Source: Acidobacteriota bacterium (GTDB lineage Bacteria > Acidobacteriota > Terriglobia > 2-12-FULL-54-10). From it: a stretch of DNA of 49,570 bases. The translations under genes and the position numbers were made by a program. The notes beneath the pieces were generated by a model. The model did no database searches. It was not told where the DNA came from and saw nothing but the letters and a program-made list of their open reading frames with translations. Below are positions 14,756 to 19,986 of the stretch, one piece after another. Where the stretch lies: NCBI GenBank assembly GCA_009691245.1, contig SHUM01000023.1:1-49570 (forward strand), in the 5' to 3' direction. Positions within the stretch are counted from its first letter, which is position 1; each line of letters starts with the position of its first letter.

Positions 14756-15265
14756 TTATTTGCGAACGTGAGAGACGCTCAACGGTGTGGGGCCGCGTAG
14801 TGTCTGGAACACCACACAATAGCGTTCGGTGAGTTCCACCATCTTGGCCAGTTGCTCGTCCGGCGCGTCCGAGTCGATCTCAAAGCGCAGGCGGATGTTG
14901 GCCAGTCCAACCGGAGATTCCTTCGAGACGCCGAGTGTTCCGCGCGCATCCCAGTCCCCCTCGGCCACCACCACGGCGTCGCGCAGTGGAATGTCCAGCG
15001 CAGTCGAGACGGCTTTCATGGTGACGCCAGCGCAGGCCGCCAGCGCTTCCAACAACATGTCGCCGGAGCAGACGTAGCTGCCATCGCCACCAGTAACTGG
15101 ATGCAGTCCCACCGCCACCATCGCCTTCCCGGTCTCCACTTTACAGGCGATGCCGTCGCTGTCCAGCCGGCTGCGCGCCGAGAGCGTAACGATCGCGCTG
15201 GACGGTTCTTCCTTGTATTTGTTTTTCAGCGGCGCTTGTAGCGCGCGCAATTCATCTTTGTTCAT
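14756..15265 (-). CDS. OsmC-family protein
   Basis: This is an OsmC/Ohr-fold protein (169 aa) that would reduce organic hydroperoxides or bind small thiols through two cysteines. Both conserved Cys sites are visible: ALAACAGVTMKAV in the middle and ERYCVVFQTLRG near the C terminus. It also has the GDGSYVCSGDMLLEAL segment. The ATG beginning NKDELRALQ was chosen; a longer version would run into the end of the upstream gene. No Shine-Dalgarno is visible, but TATAAT lies 6 bp before the ATG, hinting at a leaderless transcript. It is downstream of the ECF sigma factor and GIDE-like genes on the same strand, which suggests a role in the same stress response. Confidence 0.88.
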   Translation of the reverse strand: MNKDELRALQAPLKNKYKEEPSSAIVTLSARSRLDSDGIACKVETGKAMVAVGLHPVTGGDGSYVCSGDMLLEALAACAGVTMKAVSTALDIPLRDAVVVAEGDWDARGTLGVSKESPVGLANIRLRFEIDSDAPDEQLAKMVELTERYCVVFQTLRGPTPLSVSHVRK

Positions 15266-15271
15266 CTTTTT

Positions 15272-15277
15272 ATTATA
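15272..15277 (-). promoter_or_regulatory. TATAAT box just upstream of the OsmC-family gene
   Basis: A perfect TATAAT sits 6 nt before the ATG on the minus strand, the spacing expected if transcription starts at the A of the start codon. No good -35 element was found. Confidence 0.4.
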
Positions 15278-15341
15278 GGTGAATTTAGGGTAAAGCGCGG
15301 AACGCACATCAGCCCGATTCGCGGCCACATGCTTGAGTCGG

Positions 15342-16370
15342 CTAACCGCCGCCGCTTTCAAAGACGCACGAGAGGATCAACACGACGCTGATCGCCAGGC
15401 AGACCAGCGCCATCTTGGCGGTTTTGTGCGATTTCTTGCGCACCCTGCCATGCACTTGATCGGGCGTTCCCTCGCCGATAAGGAAGGTGTCGTCGGGATG
15501 CTCCTTGCGGATGACGATGGGGTAGGCCCATTGCGATCCGGGCGGCGATTCAAACGCGGGACCAATCACGTACACCGGATCGCCCGGCAGCAGACTCTCT
15601 TCCGTGACGCGAAGTTTGTCTTTACCCACATTTTTGGCGATCTCCCTGGCGCGCCGCAGGCGTTGCTCGGCCTCGGTGATCTGCGGTTGAGCGGTGCCCG
15701 GATCAATATGCGGTTCAATACCGTTCTGGCGCATTTTCTCGCGCAGGACGGGATCATTGATGATGGTGGCCAGCCGCTCATGCCCCGTCTGGACCCCCTC
15801 GCGCATCCAGCCGGGAAGGCTCTCCAATCCCGTTCGTTTCAGGGCAAGCTCGTAGTGTAGATCGCGTATCCGCGCCTCCAGCCCTTCGCCGGTCCAGCTC
15901 AGGCTGCTCAGAAAATCGCGCTGACTTTCGGGCGGATTCCACTTCTCGCCCGTGGTGAGTGTCAGGTCCGAGAGCAGTTGGAACTCGGCTTTCTCCGGGA
16001 CCACCCAGACGCGCCCGCTGGCGTCCTCCACGAAAAACGGGACTGACTGCTGATCCCGCAACTCCGTTTCCCAATCTTGTTCAGATTGTTTTTCGTTGTA
16101 GACCTCCACGAAGCTGCGTGTAACCAGGCAGTTCAGTCCGAGCACGGCGCTCTTGACCGTCGCGGCGCCCACGGCGCGTCCCGCCACCTGTACCATGCCT
16201 TCCTGAATCTGCGCCACTGGCGTTACTGCCAGCCTGGAGGCCAGCTTCGCCGGGTAACGCTCTTTCCGGGAAACGTAGAAAAGCGCGGCGGCGAAGACCA
16301 GGAAGATTGCTCCACCGGTGAGGCCTTCGCAAGTTAGCAAATAATTCTCCTTGACCTGCCGGCTAGCCAC
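15342..16370 (-). CDS. Two-helix membrane protein with GIDE-like domain
   Basis: The protein (342 aa) has a transmembrane helix at each end: GAIFLVFAAALFYV near residues 20-33 and MALVCLAISVVLILSCVF near the C terminus. The region between looks like the GIDE domain known from mitochondrial MUL1 and many bacterial membrane proteins: QEGMVQVAGRAV, then a conserved Cys in LNCLVTRSFVEVY, then PFFVEDASGRVWVVP. A helical middle section and a C-terminal DPVYVIGPAF and TFLIGEG section follow. The function in bacteria is unknown. It starts at GTG and overlaps the sigma factor stop by 8 bp, which implies translational coupling. Identification of the domain is from residue pattern only. Confidence 0.65.
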   Translation of the reverse strand: MASRQVKENYLLTCEGLTGGAIFLVFAAALFYVSRKERYPAKLASRLAVTPVAQIQEGMVQVAGRAVGAATVKSAVLGLNCLVTRSFVEVYNEKQSEQDWETELRDQQSVPFFVEDASGRVWVVPEKAEFQLLSDLTLTTGEKWNPPESQRDFLSSLSWTGEGLEARIRDLHYELALKRTGLESLPGWMREGVQTGHERLATIINDPVLREKMRQNGIEPHIDPGTAQPQITEAEQRLRRAREIAKNVGKDKLRVTEESLLPGDPVYVIGPAFESPPGSQWAYPIVIRKEHPDDTFLIGEGTPDQVHGRVRKKSHKTAKMALVCLAISVVLILSCVFESGGG

Positions 16371-17016
16371 ATTCCGCGATGGATTTGCAGTGGCAGTCGA
16401 GACAGCCGTGCTCGGCGCAAACGCCGCAGGCGCGTTCGATCTGCTGGCGCAGCGCCTGCCGCGCGCGATGCACGCGCACCGCCGCGTTGTTGGGGCTGAT
16501 ATCTTCCTGCGCGCTTAAATCCTTGAGCGAGCCTTCCTGTAGCTCCACGATCTCGATAGCGCGCCGATACTCCGGCTTGAGCAAATCCAGAAATTCGCGG
16601 AAACAGCCGCAGACTTCATGCTCCTCCGCTTCGGTCAAGGAAGCATTGCGCTCCCAATCTTCCGCCCAGCCATGCAGGGCGCGCTGCTCGGCGGCCTGAT
16701 GGCGGAAGTGGTCAATGACCGCATTGCGCAGCACGCGATAGAACCACGCCGTAGCCCTCTCCTCATTGCCGGGATCGCGGGGCAGATCGCTGCCACGCTC
16801 ACCAGCGCGCTCCATGCCGCGCACGAAGGCGTCCTGCAGGATGTCCTCGGCTACCTCGCGCGACCCCACGCGTTTCTCAACGAATGCGAGAAAACGCTGC
16901 TTGCCTTGCAGCAGCCGCGCCATGACCTCGGCGGGAACCGCTTCGCCGGGGGATCGACCGGGGGACAGGGAGGTCCCGGCAGACTGCGAATTGGTCGCTG
17001 GATTTCCAGACTTCAT
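16363..17016 (-). CDS. ECF sigma factor with metal-sensing Cys-rich tail (CorE/ECF44-like)
   Basis: This is an extracytoplasmic-function sigma factor (217 aa) with sigma2 (EDILQDAFVRGMERA, then ATAWFYRVLRNAVIDHFR) and sigma4 (KPEYRRAIEIVELQEGSLKDLS, then NNAAVRVHRARQAL). Two cysteine features are unusual for ordinary ECF proteins: a CXC pair at Cys136/Cys138 in the sigma2-sigma4 linker, and a C-terminal Cys-rich tail with Cys197, 200, 205, 208, 210 and 216. That combination is the hallmark of CorE/ECF44 sigma factors, in which copper or cadmium binding to the tail switches activity without an anti-sigma factor. No anti-sigma gene is seen here. The gene is divergent from a metallothionein gene, which fits metal control. 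The metal is not deducible from sequence. Confidence 0.9.
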   Translation of the reverse strand: MKSGNPATNSQSAGTSLSPGRSPGEAVPAEVMARLLQGKQRFLAFVEKRVGSREVAEDILQDAFVRGMERAGERGSDLPRDPGNEERATAWFYRVLRNAVIDHFRHQAAEQRALHGWAEDWERNASLTEAEEHEVCGCFREFLDLLKPEYRRAIEIVELQEGSLKDLSAQEDISPNNAAVRVHRARQALRQQIERACGVCAEHGCLDCHCKSIAECG

Positions 17017-17078
17017 GGCCTCAGCGTAACACGTTTTTTGTGGGCCGAATCACGCGAATGGGCCTGTAAACAGGCACT

Positions 17079-17107
17079 GTAATGTTTTTTTATCTGATCC
17101 GTCTAAT
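17079..17107 (+). promoter_or_regulatory. Candidate ECF-type promoter of the metallothionein gene
   Basis: TGTAATG (17079-17085) and CGTCTAAT (17100-17107) lie 14 bp apart, about 45 bp upstream of the metallothionein ATG. This resembles ECF -35/-10 pairs, whose -10 often contains CGTC. An inverted repeat CCTGT-AA-ACAGG lies just upstream at about 17063-17074. It is inferred by eye from the shape of ECF promoters. Confidence 0.35.
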
Positions 17108-17151
17108 AGGGTGGAAGCAATGATAATTACAACCAAACAGGAGGCTGAATC

Positions 17152-17280
17152 ATGGCAACTAAGAATCAATGCAAGTGCGATTGCTGCAAGAATTGCGACT
17201 GCGGCCCCGAGGGCTGCTCCTGCAAGTGCGATGGGAAGACGGGCTCATGCGCCTGCACTTGCAAATGCTGCTCCAAATAG
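17152..17280 (+). CDS. Bacterial metallothionein-like peptide (42 aa, 14 Cys)
   Basis: This is a tiny open reading frame of 42 codons with 14 cysteines (positions 7, 9, 11, 12, 15, 17, 22, 24, 26, 33, 35, 37, 39, 40), arranged as CXC and CC motifs spaced by Lys, Asp, Gly and Ser, with no aromatic residues. That composition is diagnostic of metallothionein, a cytoplasmic peptide that chelates Cu(I), Zn or Cd in thiolate clusters. AGGAGG at 17139-17144 is placed 7 bp before the ATG, so it should be well translated. It is transcribed divergently from the CorE-like sigma factor, 135 bp away. It is not one of the SmtA family (no zinc-finger-like His/Cys pattern) and looks closer to the short Cys-rich copper-binding type. 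It is easy to miss because of its size. Confidence 0.88.
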   Translation: MATKNQCKCDCCKNCDCGPEGCSCKCDGKTGSCACTCKCCSK

Positions 17281-17340: not shown

Positions 17341-19008
17341 TCAATTGGTCGAGATGCGGAAGGTGGTTTTGACCACGAAGAAGTTGTCGCCGGGCGCCGA
17401 CAGCGACCCGAACATGGAGCGCAGTCCGGCGCTCGAGCGCGTGGCCTCGGTCTTGGTGCGGTCCTGCTGCCAGACCAGGAAGAAGGTGGTGCCGGGGCGC
17501 CACTCCCAGCGCAGCACTAAATTACTGCGGAATGATTGCACGTTGAAGTCGCGGTTGGCGACGGTAAACGTCGCGCCGTTGTCGCGCACCGACCAGTCGC
17601 CGTTGGCGAGTCGCGTGAGCGAGTCGCCTGGCAGCAATCCGCCTTCAGCCTCACCATAGAAGCGCACCTCGCGCGAGCGCGCCGCGGCCAATTCGCCGAT
17701 GCGCTCATAGCGGCCGCTGGCGGCGAACGGCTCGGCGTAGAAATCCAGATTCAGGTCCGGCTTGAAGGTGTAGCCGAGGCGCATCTGCATCAGCATGGTC
17801 GAGCGCTCGATTTGCCCGAAGATGGAGCGCACGCCATAGGTCTCTACTCCACCGCCGGTGCGCTGGGTGATAAACTGCCGCGTGGAGCGTTCGCGCCGGT
17901 AGTCCGGCGTGATGGAGACCTGCCAGGCCGGCGCGGGGCGCAACGAAAAGGTCCCGTTCACCTGTCGCACCCAGTCGCCTTCCTCGTTTCTCTCGCAGAC
18001 GCCCTTCACCGTCCAGCGCGTCTGCGCGGAGGCCGAGTTGCTGAACGAGCCATCCATCTTCAGTTCGCGCGCCTGCTGCATGGAGGGTCCACCACGCGTC
18101 AGCACCGGGTCCTGCCCGCGTCCGTTCAGCGACCAGTTGAACGAAGTGCGCCAGAAATTCAGGAAGGTGAAATTGAAGTTCTGCTGGAAGTTGTACTTCC
18201 GGCCGAGATCGCGGTCGAAGTAGTTGGTCATCCCCGTCTGGCTGTTGATGTTCCACGAACGCAGGTAGCGACCAGGCGTGGTGTCGCGATAATTCGCATA
18301 CACAAAATTATTCAAGTCGCCGGCCACCGCCAGCCGCCCGAAGTCCAGGCTGTCAAACTCCGGCGTGTCGTACATGAACTGGCTGCCCCACAGCCAGTGT
18401 TCGCCGGTAACCTTGGCCAGCTTCAAGTGGCCCTTGGTGCCGCCCAGCGAAGTGCGGGTGGGATCGAACGGCGTGCCTCTTACACGGTCGGGGCGCTGAA
18501 ACAAATGGTACACATTGCGCTGGGTGCGCTCGATGACCGCCGGGTCGCCCGAGATGTAGCTCCACGCGAACAACCCATCGAGTTCATAGGCATTGCGCCC
18601 GAAGCGCAGCAGCGTATCGGCCACGCCGCTATAGGCGCGGCGCGTGAGCAACTCGGCCAGCGGCTCGCCGGGCTTCAAGTCGCGGTGCATGGCGGTGAAC
18701 AGCGTCGAGACCGTCGAGCGCGCGGCGCCGAACTCCTGCAGCACGCGGCCCACGCCCCAGAAGGTGCGCGGCGCTACGCGGACGTCCGCGTGCGTGTCGG
18801 TGGCGCGCGTATAGGTGCGGGCGTTCTCCTCATCGGTCAGGGCGGTCAGCACGGCGAGATTCAGGCCCGATGGCAGTCTGCCGCTCACCTTCCCAGCGGC
18901 CAGAATGGTGCTGGTAGTGGGATAGTCAACGAAATCGCCCGTCGCCGGGCCGATGGGCCGCGCGCCGATGCGCCGCGAATAGTAGTAATTGTTCACCGGC
19001 CCCTGCAA
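17341..19008 (-). CDS. DUF5916-type beta-barrel protein, C-terminal part (split gene 1)
   Basis: These are 555 residues forming the outer-membrane barrel portion of a DUF5916 protein (alternating strands such as GRYLRSWNINSQTG, ending FFVVKTTFRISTN). The reading frame is the same as that of the upstream piece at 19057-19986. Between them the sequence continues as SLFSERRAFFLEGNSLL, the conserved family segment, so the real gene is 17341-19986 with one internal TAA. The start shown (TTG) is only the first in-frame alternative start after the stop and may not be used. It is paralogous to the intact protein at 21705-23942. Confidence 0.75.
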   Translation of the reverse strand: MQGPVNNYYYSRRIGARPIGPATGDFVDYPTTSTILAAGKVSGRLPSGLNLAVLTALTDEENARTYTRATDTHADVRVAPRTFWGVGRVLQEFGAARSTVSTLFTAMHRDLKPGEPLAELLTRRAYSGVADTLLRFGRNAYELDGLFAWSYISGDPAVIERTQRNVYHLFQRPDRVRGTPFDPTRTSLGGTKGHLKLAKVTGEHWLWGSQFMYDTPEFDSLDFGRLAVAGDLNNFVYANYRDTTPGRYLRSWNINSQTGMTNYFDRDLGRKYNFQQNFNFTFLNFWRTSFNWSLNGRGQDPVLTRGGPSMQQARELKMDGSFSNSASAQTRWTVKGVCERNEEGDWVRQVNGTFSLRPAPAWQVSITPDYRRERSTRQFITQRTGGGVETYGVRSIFGQIERSTMLMQMRLGYTFKPDLNLDFYAEPFAASGRYERIGELAAARSREVRFYGEAEGGLLPGDSLTRLANGDWSVRDNGATFTVANRDFNVQSFRSNLVLRWEWRPGTTFFLVWQQDRTKTEATRSSAGLRSMFGSLSAPGDNFFVVKTTFRISTN

Positions 19009-19056
19009 CAGACTGTTGCCCTCCAGGAAGAACGCGCGCCGCTCGGAGAACAGAGA

Positions 19057-19986
19057 TTAAAAGGTGCTGAGATTCACTTCGGCGGGATCGGCCTCCACCT
19101 GCCCGAAGTCCGGGTTGATGGTGGCATCGAGCGTCAGATTCGAGCTGAGCGCCATGTTGAGGTCCAGACCCGTGCGCGCCTCGAGATTCCTGCCATCGTC
19201 AAATGGGTTGGCCGGATCGCGGTCGCCGCTTACGCGCGACGCGCCCGCCACGTAGGGATACAGCTCGACGCGGCGGCGCGGCTCGACGCCTTCAAAGCCG
19301 CGCAGCTCGCCAAAGCGCGAGGCCCAGCCGCGCTCCGTACGCCCGATGCCCACCCAGTAGTCGTCTTCATTCAGCGTCGGCGTGTAGCGGCGGACATTCA
19401 TGCCCCAGACCATGTCCGGCGATTCACTGAAGCGCAGTTGCGTGAGCGGAATCCAGAATTCAGCGGTCCAGCCTTGCGCGTCCACGCGCGTGCGCGCCTG
19501 CCAGACGGGGTCATAGGTGAAGTCAACGGGGAACTGATTGTCGGTGGCATGATATCCGTCCGCGCGGACGCCGGAGGCGCTGACCGCGAACGAATACGCG
19601 GTGCGCCGATCCAGATAGGTGTCGATGGACACCTGCAAAAACTCAGCTTCATTAACATTGTCGCGGCGGCTCATGGGCGCCTGAATCGACACGGGATCCT
19701 TGCTGGTCATGCGCGCGCCGATGTAGAGCGAGGTGTCGTCATAAACGATGCGCACCTCGGTGGGCTCGCTGGGCGCAGCGCCTTCGTTCGGCTCCTTCTG
19801 CACGAAGTCGCTGATGGGCGCCGCTTGCGCCCATGCCGGATCATCAAGTTGGCCGTCCAGCTTGATCGCGCCATTGGCCACGCGCACGGCTCGCGCCTGC
19901 TTGCGGTTGGCAGGAACCTGGTCCTGCGTGCGCGTCGTGCAAACCGAACCGAGCAACGCGATGAGTAAGAATATAATGGCAGGCAT
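19057..19986 (-). CDS. DUF5916-type protein, N-terminal part with CBM9-like domain (split gene 1)
   Basis: The product has a signal peptide (IIFLLIALLGSVC), then a carbohydrate-binding family 9-like domain (IKLDGQLDDPAWAQA, VRIVYDDTSLYIGARM, WTAEFWIPLTQLRF), then the beginning of the barrel domain (TINPDFGQVEADPAEVNLSTF). It ends at TAA at 19057-19059, exactly where the family continues with a Glu or similar residue and then FSERRAFFLEG. DUF5916 proteins sit in the outer membrane of Acidobacteriota and Bacteroidota; their role is unknown. No Shine-Dalgarno is visible, but TATAAT lies 8 bp before the ATG, consistent with a leaderless mRNA. A single substitution explains the split. Confidence 0.8.
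   Translation of the reverse strand: MPAIIFLLIALLGSVCTTRTQDQVPANRKQARAVRVANGAIKLDGQLDDPAWAQAAPISDFVQKEPNEGAAPSEPTEVRIVYDDTSLYIGARMTSKDPVSIQAPMSRRDNVNEAEFLQVSIDTYLDRRTAYSFAVSASGVRADGYHATDNQFPVDFTYDPVWQARTRVDAQGWTAEFWIPLTQLRFSESPDMVWGMNVRRYTPTLNEDDYWVGIGRTERGWASRFGELRGFEGVEPRRRVELYPYVAGASRVSGDRDPANPFDDGRNLEARTGLDLNMALSSNLTLDATINPDFGQVEADPAEVNLSTF

Follow-up and report, generated by a model that had tools for sequence, protein, structure and literature searches.

Gene content and sequence features of the locus

The window (the whole analysed stretch, 49,570 nucleotides of contig SHUM01000023.1 from an Acidobacteriota bacterium) contains a gene for a CorE-type ECF sigma factor of 217 amino acids (positions 16363..17016, strand -). 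Its product matches only sigma-70 regions 2 and 4 in Pfam (PF04542 and PF08281), and its best NCBIfam matches correspond to SigZ and fall below the cutoff. The linker contains Cys136-x-Cys138, invariant in alignment A1, and the tail contains six cysteines (positions 197, 200, 205, 208, 210 and 216) arranged as C-x2-C-x4-C-x2-C-x-C plus C216. The first five tail cysteines are spaced as Cys181/184/189/192/194 of Myxococcus xanthus CorE (PMC3107203): the four invariant CorE tail cysteines (181, 184, 192 and 194) correspond to C197, C200, C208 and C210, and C205 matches Cys189, on which copper activation of CorE chiefly depends (PMC3107203). With all seven signature cysteines present, the sequence supports a CorE/ECF44-like assignment, as had been proposed in the preliminary description from the linker CxC and the six tail cysteines; that description had also considered a non-metal ECF group without conserved tail cysteines, and the tail cysteines proved to be conserved. 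No anti-sigma gene was detected by Pfam among the adjacent genes (GIDE, OsmC and the Cys-rich ORF described below).

The sigma gene is followed on its own strand by genes for a GIDE-like membrane protein (15342..16370, strand -; PF12483), with an 8-nt overlap at the sigma stop, and for an OsmC-like protein (14756..15361, strand -; PF02566), both probably co-transcribed with it. Homologues of these two genes were found beside no other sigma locus collected, relatives of the GIDE-like protein being rare in the class, and both were rejected as parts of the module since they never lie beside another CorE-type sigma factor. It had been suggested that the sigma factor drives its own operon with these genes. 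This suggestion, and with it self-activation of the operon, finds no support here, as the sigma strand of the window carries no copy of the TGTAA-N17-CGTC element described below. The sigma gene probably has a promoter of its own, perhaps leaderless, for which the candidate (17017..17029, strand -) is a TACGCT element located six nt 5' of the ATG; a similar TANNNT element occurs in loci L002 and L027 and is absent from some divergent loci.

On the opposite strand, 135 bp from the sigma start codon, lies an ORF for a metallothionein-like protein of 42 amino acids and 14 cysteines (17152..17280, strand +), annotated from its ribosome site and its recurrence beside sigma loci; no other such ORF occurs in the window. 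One third of its residues are cysteines, with CxC and CC motifs, and it contains no F, W, Y or H. By composition it fits the class definition of metallothioneins (very small, Cys-rich, CxC/CC, no aromatics) and yet belongs to no described family: no Pfam or NCBIfam match was obtained, a few of its relatives resemble PF01439 below the cutoff, and a PDB sequence search with the peptides returned nothing significant, only noise. The ORF is preceded by the ribosome site AACAGGAGG (AGGAGG), included in a 5' untranslated region (17104..17151, strand +) in which a hairpin is weak or absent (z +0.24), and by a CorE-type promoter, TGTAATGTTTTTTTATCTGATCCGTC (17078..17103, strand +; -35 TGTAA, N17, -10 CGTC), which ends 48 nt 5' of the ATG. 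The frame, its perfect Shine-Dalgarno and its distance from the sigma gene were reproduced exactly as initially described. Beyond this ORF, two adjacent ORFs within 17341-19986 (strand -) match consecutive parts of DUF5916 (profile positions 3-65 and 87-561), and probably represent one gene that a frameshift or stop has interrupted in the assembly.

Recurrence of the sigma-peptide pair

Relatives of the sigma factor were gathered from 200 genomes near the window, from further genome contigs and from 396 genomes of the phylum, and 107 distinct sigma loci share the signature C.C-x58-C..C.{4}C..C.C with fixed spacing. The M. xanthus AM003 locus (L039) was taken as CorE itself because its cysteines follow the CorE spacing throughout, down to the equivalent of Cys206 twelve residues further on. 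The sigma factor is missing from the six other genomes of the window's family (one of them of the same genus), and the window therefore has no close comparison. Plasmid-borne relatives showed at most about 42% identity; the one that was inspected, L253, has copper genes nearby and no annotated metallothionein.

To be accepted under the strict test, a small ORF had to begin with ATG, follow a ribosome site with at least 4 matches, encode 18-80 amino acids and contain at least 6 cysteines, which had to make up at least 20% of the residues. Such an ORF was found at 350 bp or less from the sigma gene in 42 of the 107 distinct loci (74 kb searched), whereas 427 kb of more distant sequence from these loci held a single one (L195), which is similar to the rest. 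By the strict test, some 60% of sigma loci are without such a peptide. The ORFs of the 42 loci encode 21-55 amino acids, and the paired peptides of relatives in general measure 21-56 amino acids; they align poorly with each other and are grouped here by cysteine content, not by shown homology. The ORF is upstream on the sigma strand in 29 loci, divergent as in the window in 10, downstream on the same strand in two and convergent in one. On the sigma tree, the distribution of the pairing needs 10 changes, at least five of them forced by well-supported branches, compared with 34 when labels are shuffled.

Gemmatimonadota and Myxococcota were surveyed after the criteria had been set, with the Cys-density cut-off relaxed to 17%, and yielded six extra pairs, all with the promoter: L240, L242, L243 and L244 in Gemmatimonadota, and L215 and L218 in Myxococcota (the L218 peptide lying 379 bp from its sigma gene). 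With the addition of L073, whose Cys density is too low for the strict test, and of L020, whose ribosome site falls short of it, at least 50 pairs are known in three phyla. The co-occurrence survey called for in the preliminary description thus places the small ORF beside many sigma orthologues, and comparison with these loci indicates that the 42-residue, 14-cysteine frame is real. In L004/L172, a CorE-type promoter downstream of sigma is followed by a 55-residue ORF that has CC and CCC clusters but does not reach the Cys-density cut-off; it perhaps encodes another metal-binding peptide.

Two RNA features accompany the peptide genes of relatives. Most of them carry, between promoter and ribosome site, a small stem-loop whose sequence varies (mean z -1.6 over 41; for example L007, L178 and L184); it was also seen before cupredoxin-like genes. 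A strong hairpin of up to about 15 bp follows the peptide stop codon in operon-type loci (mean z -3.2 over 29), between the peptide and sigma genes, as in L005, L006, L007, L191, L194 and others; it could possibly act as a partial terminator or RNA stabiliser, giving a high peptide-to-sigma ratio.

The TGTAA-N17-CGTC promoter and its targets

The element was found by reading the regions upstream of the Cys-rich ORFs. It lies 22-59 nt upstream of 41 of the 42 strict-test ORFs, its last base being T or G instead of C in six of these 41, and the exact form occurs at spacing 17 in 35 of the 42 and at spacing 16 or 18 in none. The genome of the window contains 8 exact matches in 3.43 Mb, among which the window copy alone precedes a Cys-rich ORF, and this copy becomes the single match when a ribosome site and an ATG are also required. 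The seven remaining matches look like chance, and further regulon members in this genome were rejected; no copper exporter was found behind the promoter.

The combined pattern (promoter, ribosome site and ATG) was then used to scan 399 genomes of the class, and matches were sorted by eye as real-looking or chance-looking before the presence of the sigma factor was checked. The sigma factor was present in 22 of 23 genomes with real-looking matches, versus 1 of 21 with chance-looking ones; the exception among the latter (G710) carries a sigma-peptide pair of its own at another locus (L200).

Where a sigma locus has no Cys-rich ORF, the element stands before genes with NCBIfam names of the copper type, namely P1B ATPases (CopA-type), multicopper oxidases, and CopZ-like or cupredoxin-like proteins. 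The complete M. xanthus AM003 genome has two copies of the element combined with a ribosome site and an ATG, one ahead of a P1B ATPase gene and one ahead of the gene for a heavy-metal-associated protein near corE; copB, copA and the heavy-metal-associated MXAN_3427 have been reported as CorE-dependent (PMC3107203). Because the M. xanthus copies precede gene classes reported to depend on CorE, we infer that the element is tied to CorE, with copper indicated as the metal; judged from these sequences, it may be the promoter that CorE recognises. What the genomes compared show directly is the cysteine signature, the promoter with the classes of gene behind it, and the recurrence of the pairing.

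Further copies were noted in other contexts: upstream of a gene for a membrane-anchored cupredoxin-like protein of about 123 residues in L163, L164, L165 and L168 (group f5 genomes), as a second copy near the sigma start in L040, and as a second copy 1.07 kb upstream of sigma in L003/L032, before a small secreted-protein-like gene. In a deeper sigma branch of Myxococcota (L225-L229, L232 and L233), TGTAAC or TGTAAG, N17 and CGTC lie just downstream of sigma, which suggests that the promoter preference is old.

Proposed module, alternative readings and known systems

These data are best accounted for by a two-gene metal-response module in which a metal-sensing sigma factor drives a metallothionein, a reading that we hold with good confidence. 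That the sigma factor drives the metallothionein, as first supposed, is very probable because the conserved promoter found before the peptides is shared with homologues of known CorE-dependent genes, which is the decisive evidence. The sigma factor would be made without an anti-sigma factor and stay silent until metal binds its linker CxC and Cys-rich tail; these sensing steps are drawn by analogy from published CorE work. The metal-loaded form would then bring RNA polymerase to TGTAA-N17-CGTC 48 nt before the metallothionein gene, its only convincing copy in the genome. Metallothionein made in quantity would bind the excess metal, most likely Cu(I), and protect the cell, and the resulting fall in free metal would switch the sigma factor off. 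In relatives, the same promoter would drive similar peptides, often in an operon with sigma, or copper-export genes instead; the operon-type arrangement implies positive autoregulation of the sigma factor. Metal binding by both proteins, induction, feedback and copper as the signal are the steps that we infer, copper being the most likely signal by analogy with the promoter targets of other members. The metal had initially been given as copper or cadmium; the Cys189 equivalent and the copper-type targets now favour copper, cadmium being less favoured.

That the 42-residue frame is merely a chance opening in the gap between sigma and the DUF5916 gene is hardly credible: the frame is short, has no database family and lacks a close relative for a codon-conservation test, but the recurrent pairing with ribosome site and promoter largely refutes this idea (42 of 107 loci versus one ORF in 427 kb). 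A role of the Cys-rich mini-ORF as a leader peptide, controlling the downstream sigma gene in cis through its translation or metal binding, is also very unlikely: in 13 of the 42 loci, including that of the window, the ORF is placed divergently, convergently or downstream, from where it cannot affect the sigma mRNA in cis. The position of the ORF just upstream on the sigma strand in 29 of the 42 loci and the strong, attenuator-like hairpin between ORF and sigma (mean z -3.2) would suit a leader, but the promoter always lies directly upstream of the peptide and not on the sigma strand in divergent loci, and a cysteine content of one third in the window peptide also speaks against it.

A rather improbable reading, somewhat stronger than the leader, makes the peptide mainly a feedback regulator that strips or delivers metal at the sigma tail instead of storing it in bulk. 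Its joint encoding with the sensor and the small size of many relatives (21-28 amino acids with 6-8 cysteines) fit this role, against which stand the 14 cysteines of the window peptide, as expected of storage, and the detoxification genes that form the other targets of the promoter; contact between sigma factor and peptide is purely hypothetical. The alternative that deserves most weight, though still unlikely, is that the module answers to cadmium or zinc, in the manner of CorE2, and not to copper; both metals are also bound by metallothioneins. The close homologue CorE2 does respond to Cd and Zn (review PMC8999054), but the Cys189 equivalent (for its role, PMC3107203) occurs in the window sigma factor as well as in every signature-bearing relative, and the promoter targets in relatives are of the copper type.

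Taking the copper-responsive, sigma-driven metallothionein as the preferred reading, we tentatively propose, as a generalization about as open to doubt as to belief and leaning slightly towards doubt, that CorE-type sigma factors of three phyla have been repeatedly paired with unrelated, largely unannotated copper-thioneins of 21-56 amino acids, and that these pairs form the simplest metal-detoxification circuits known, each consisting of a single sensor-sigma, a single promoter and a single peptide that both sequesters the metal and resets the sensor. If true, metal-sensing sigma factors would have a dedicated metallothionein output, and metallothioneins would extend to Acidobacteriota, Gemmatimonadota and Myxococcota in forms missed by family databases. 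CorE-type regulons could be read straight from genomes through a sequence-defined promoter, and competition of a Cys-rich sigma factor and a Cys-rich peptide for one metal would become testable.

Among known metallothioneins, SmtA/BmtA/NmtA, PmtA and MymT resemble the window peptide in being small, Cys-rich and metal-controlled (a predicted property in the window), but the window peptide has no Pfam metallothionein match at threshold. Fungal copper-thioneins such as Neurospora CuMT have near 25 amino acids and about 7 cysteines in a CxC-x3-CxC-x2-C arrangement, and the peptide of L011 and its relatives resembles the latter in length and cysteine spacing, a likeness of form with no sequence homology shown (PDB search, nothing significant). 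MymT is controlled by RicR (PMC10141476), whereas an SmtB/ArsR repressor controls NmtA (PMC8790569), neither regulator being a sigma factor. The literature searched places metallothioneins under ArsR/SmtB- or CsoR-type regulators and pairs none with a CorE-type sigma factor; likewise, searches on metallothionein with ECF sigma factors, ECF44/ECF238, Acidobacteria and Myxococcus returned no report of the pairing, such absence not amounting to proof. The pairing is thus apparently undescribed, the sigma factor itself being of a known kind.

CorE2 of M. xanthus is like the window sigma factor in architecture and in the mode of regulation predicted for the latter, and differs in the distribution of its tail cysteines and probably in its metal (Cd/Zn) (review PMC8999054). 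The nearest described system is CorE of M. xanthus (formerly ECF44, now within or near ECF238), which shares with the window sigma factor the linker CxC, the 181/184/189/192/194 tail spacing and the lack of an adjacent anti-sigma gene; the promoter element would also be the same, judging from L039, L206 and L208. The published targets of CorE are a multicopper oxidase, P1B ATPases and a heavy-metal-associated protein, whereas the predicted target in the window is a metallothionein.
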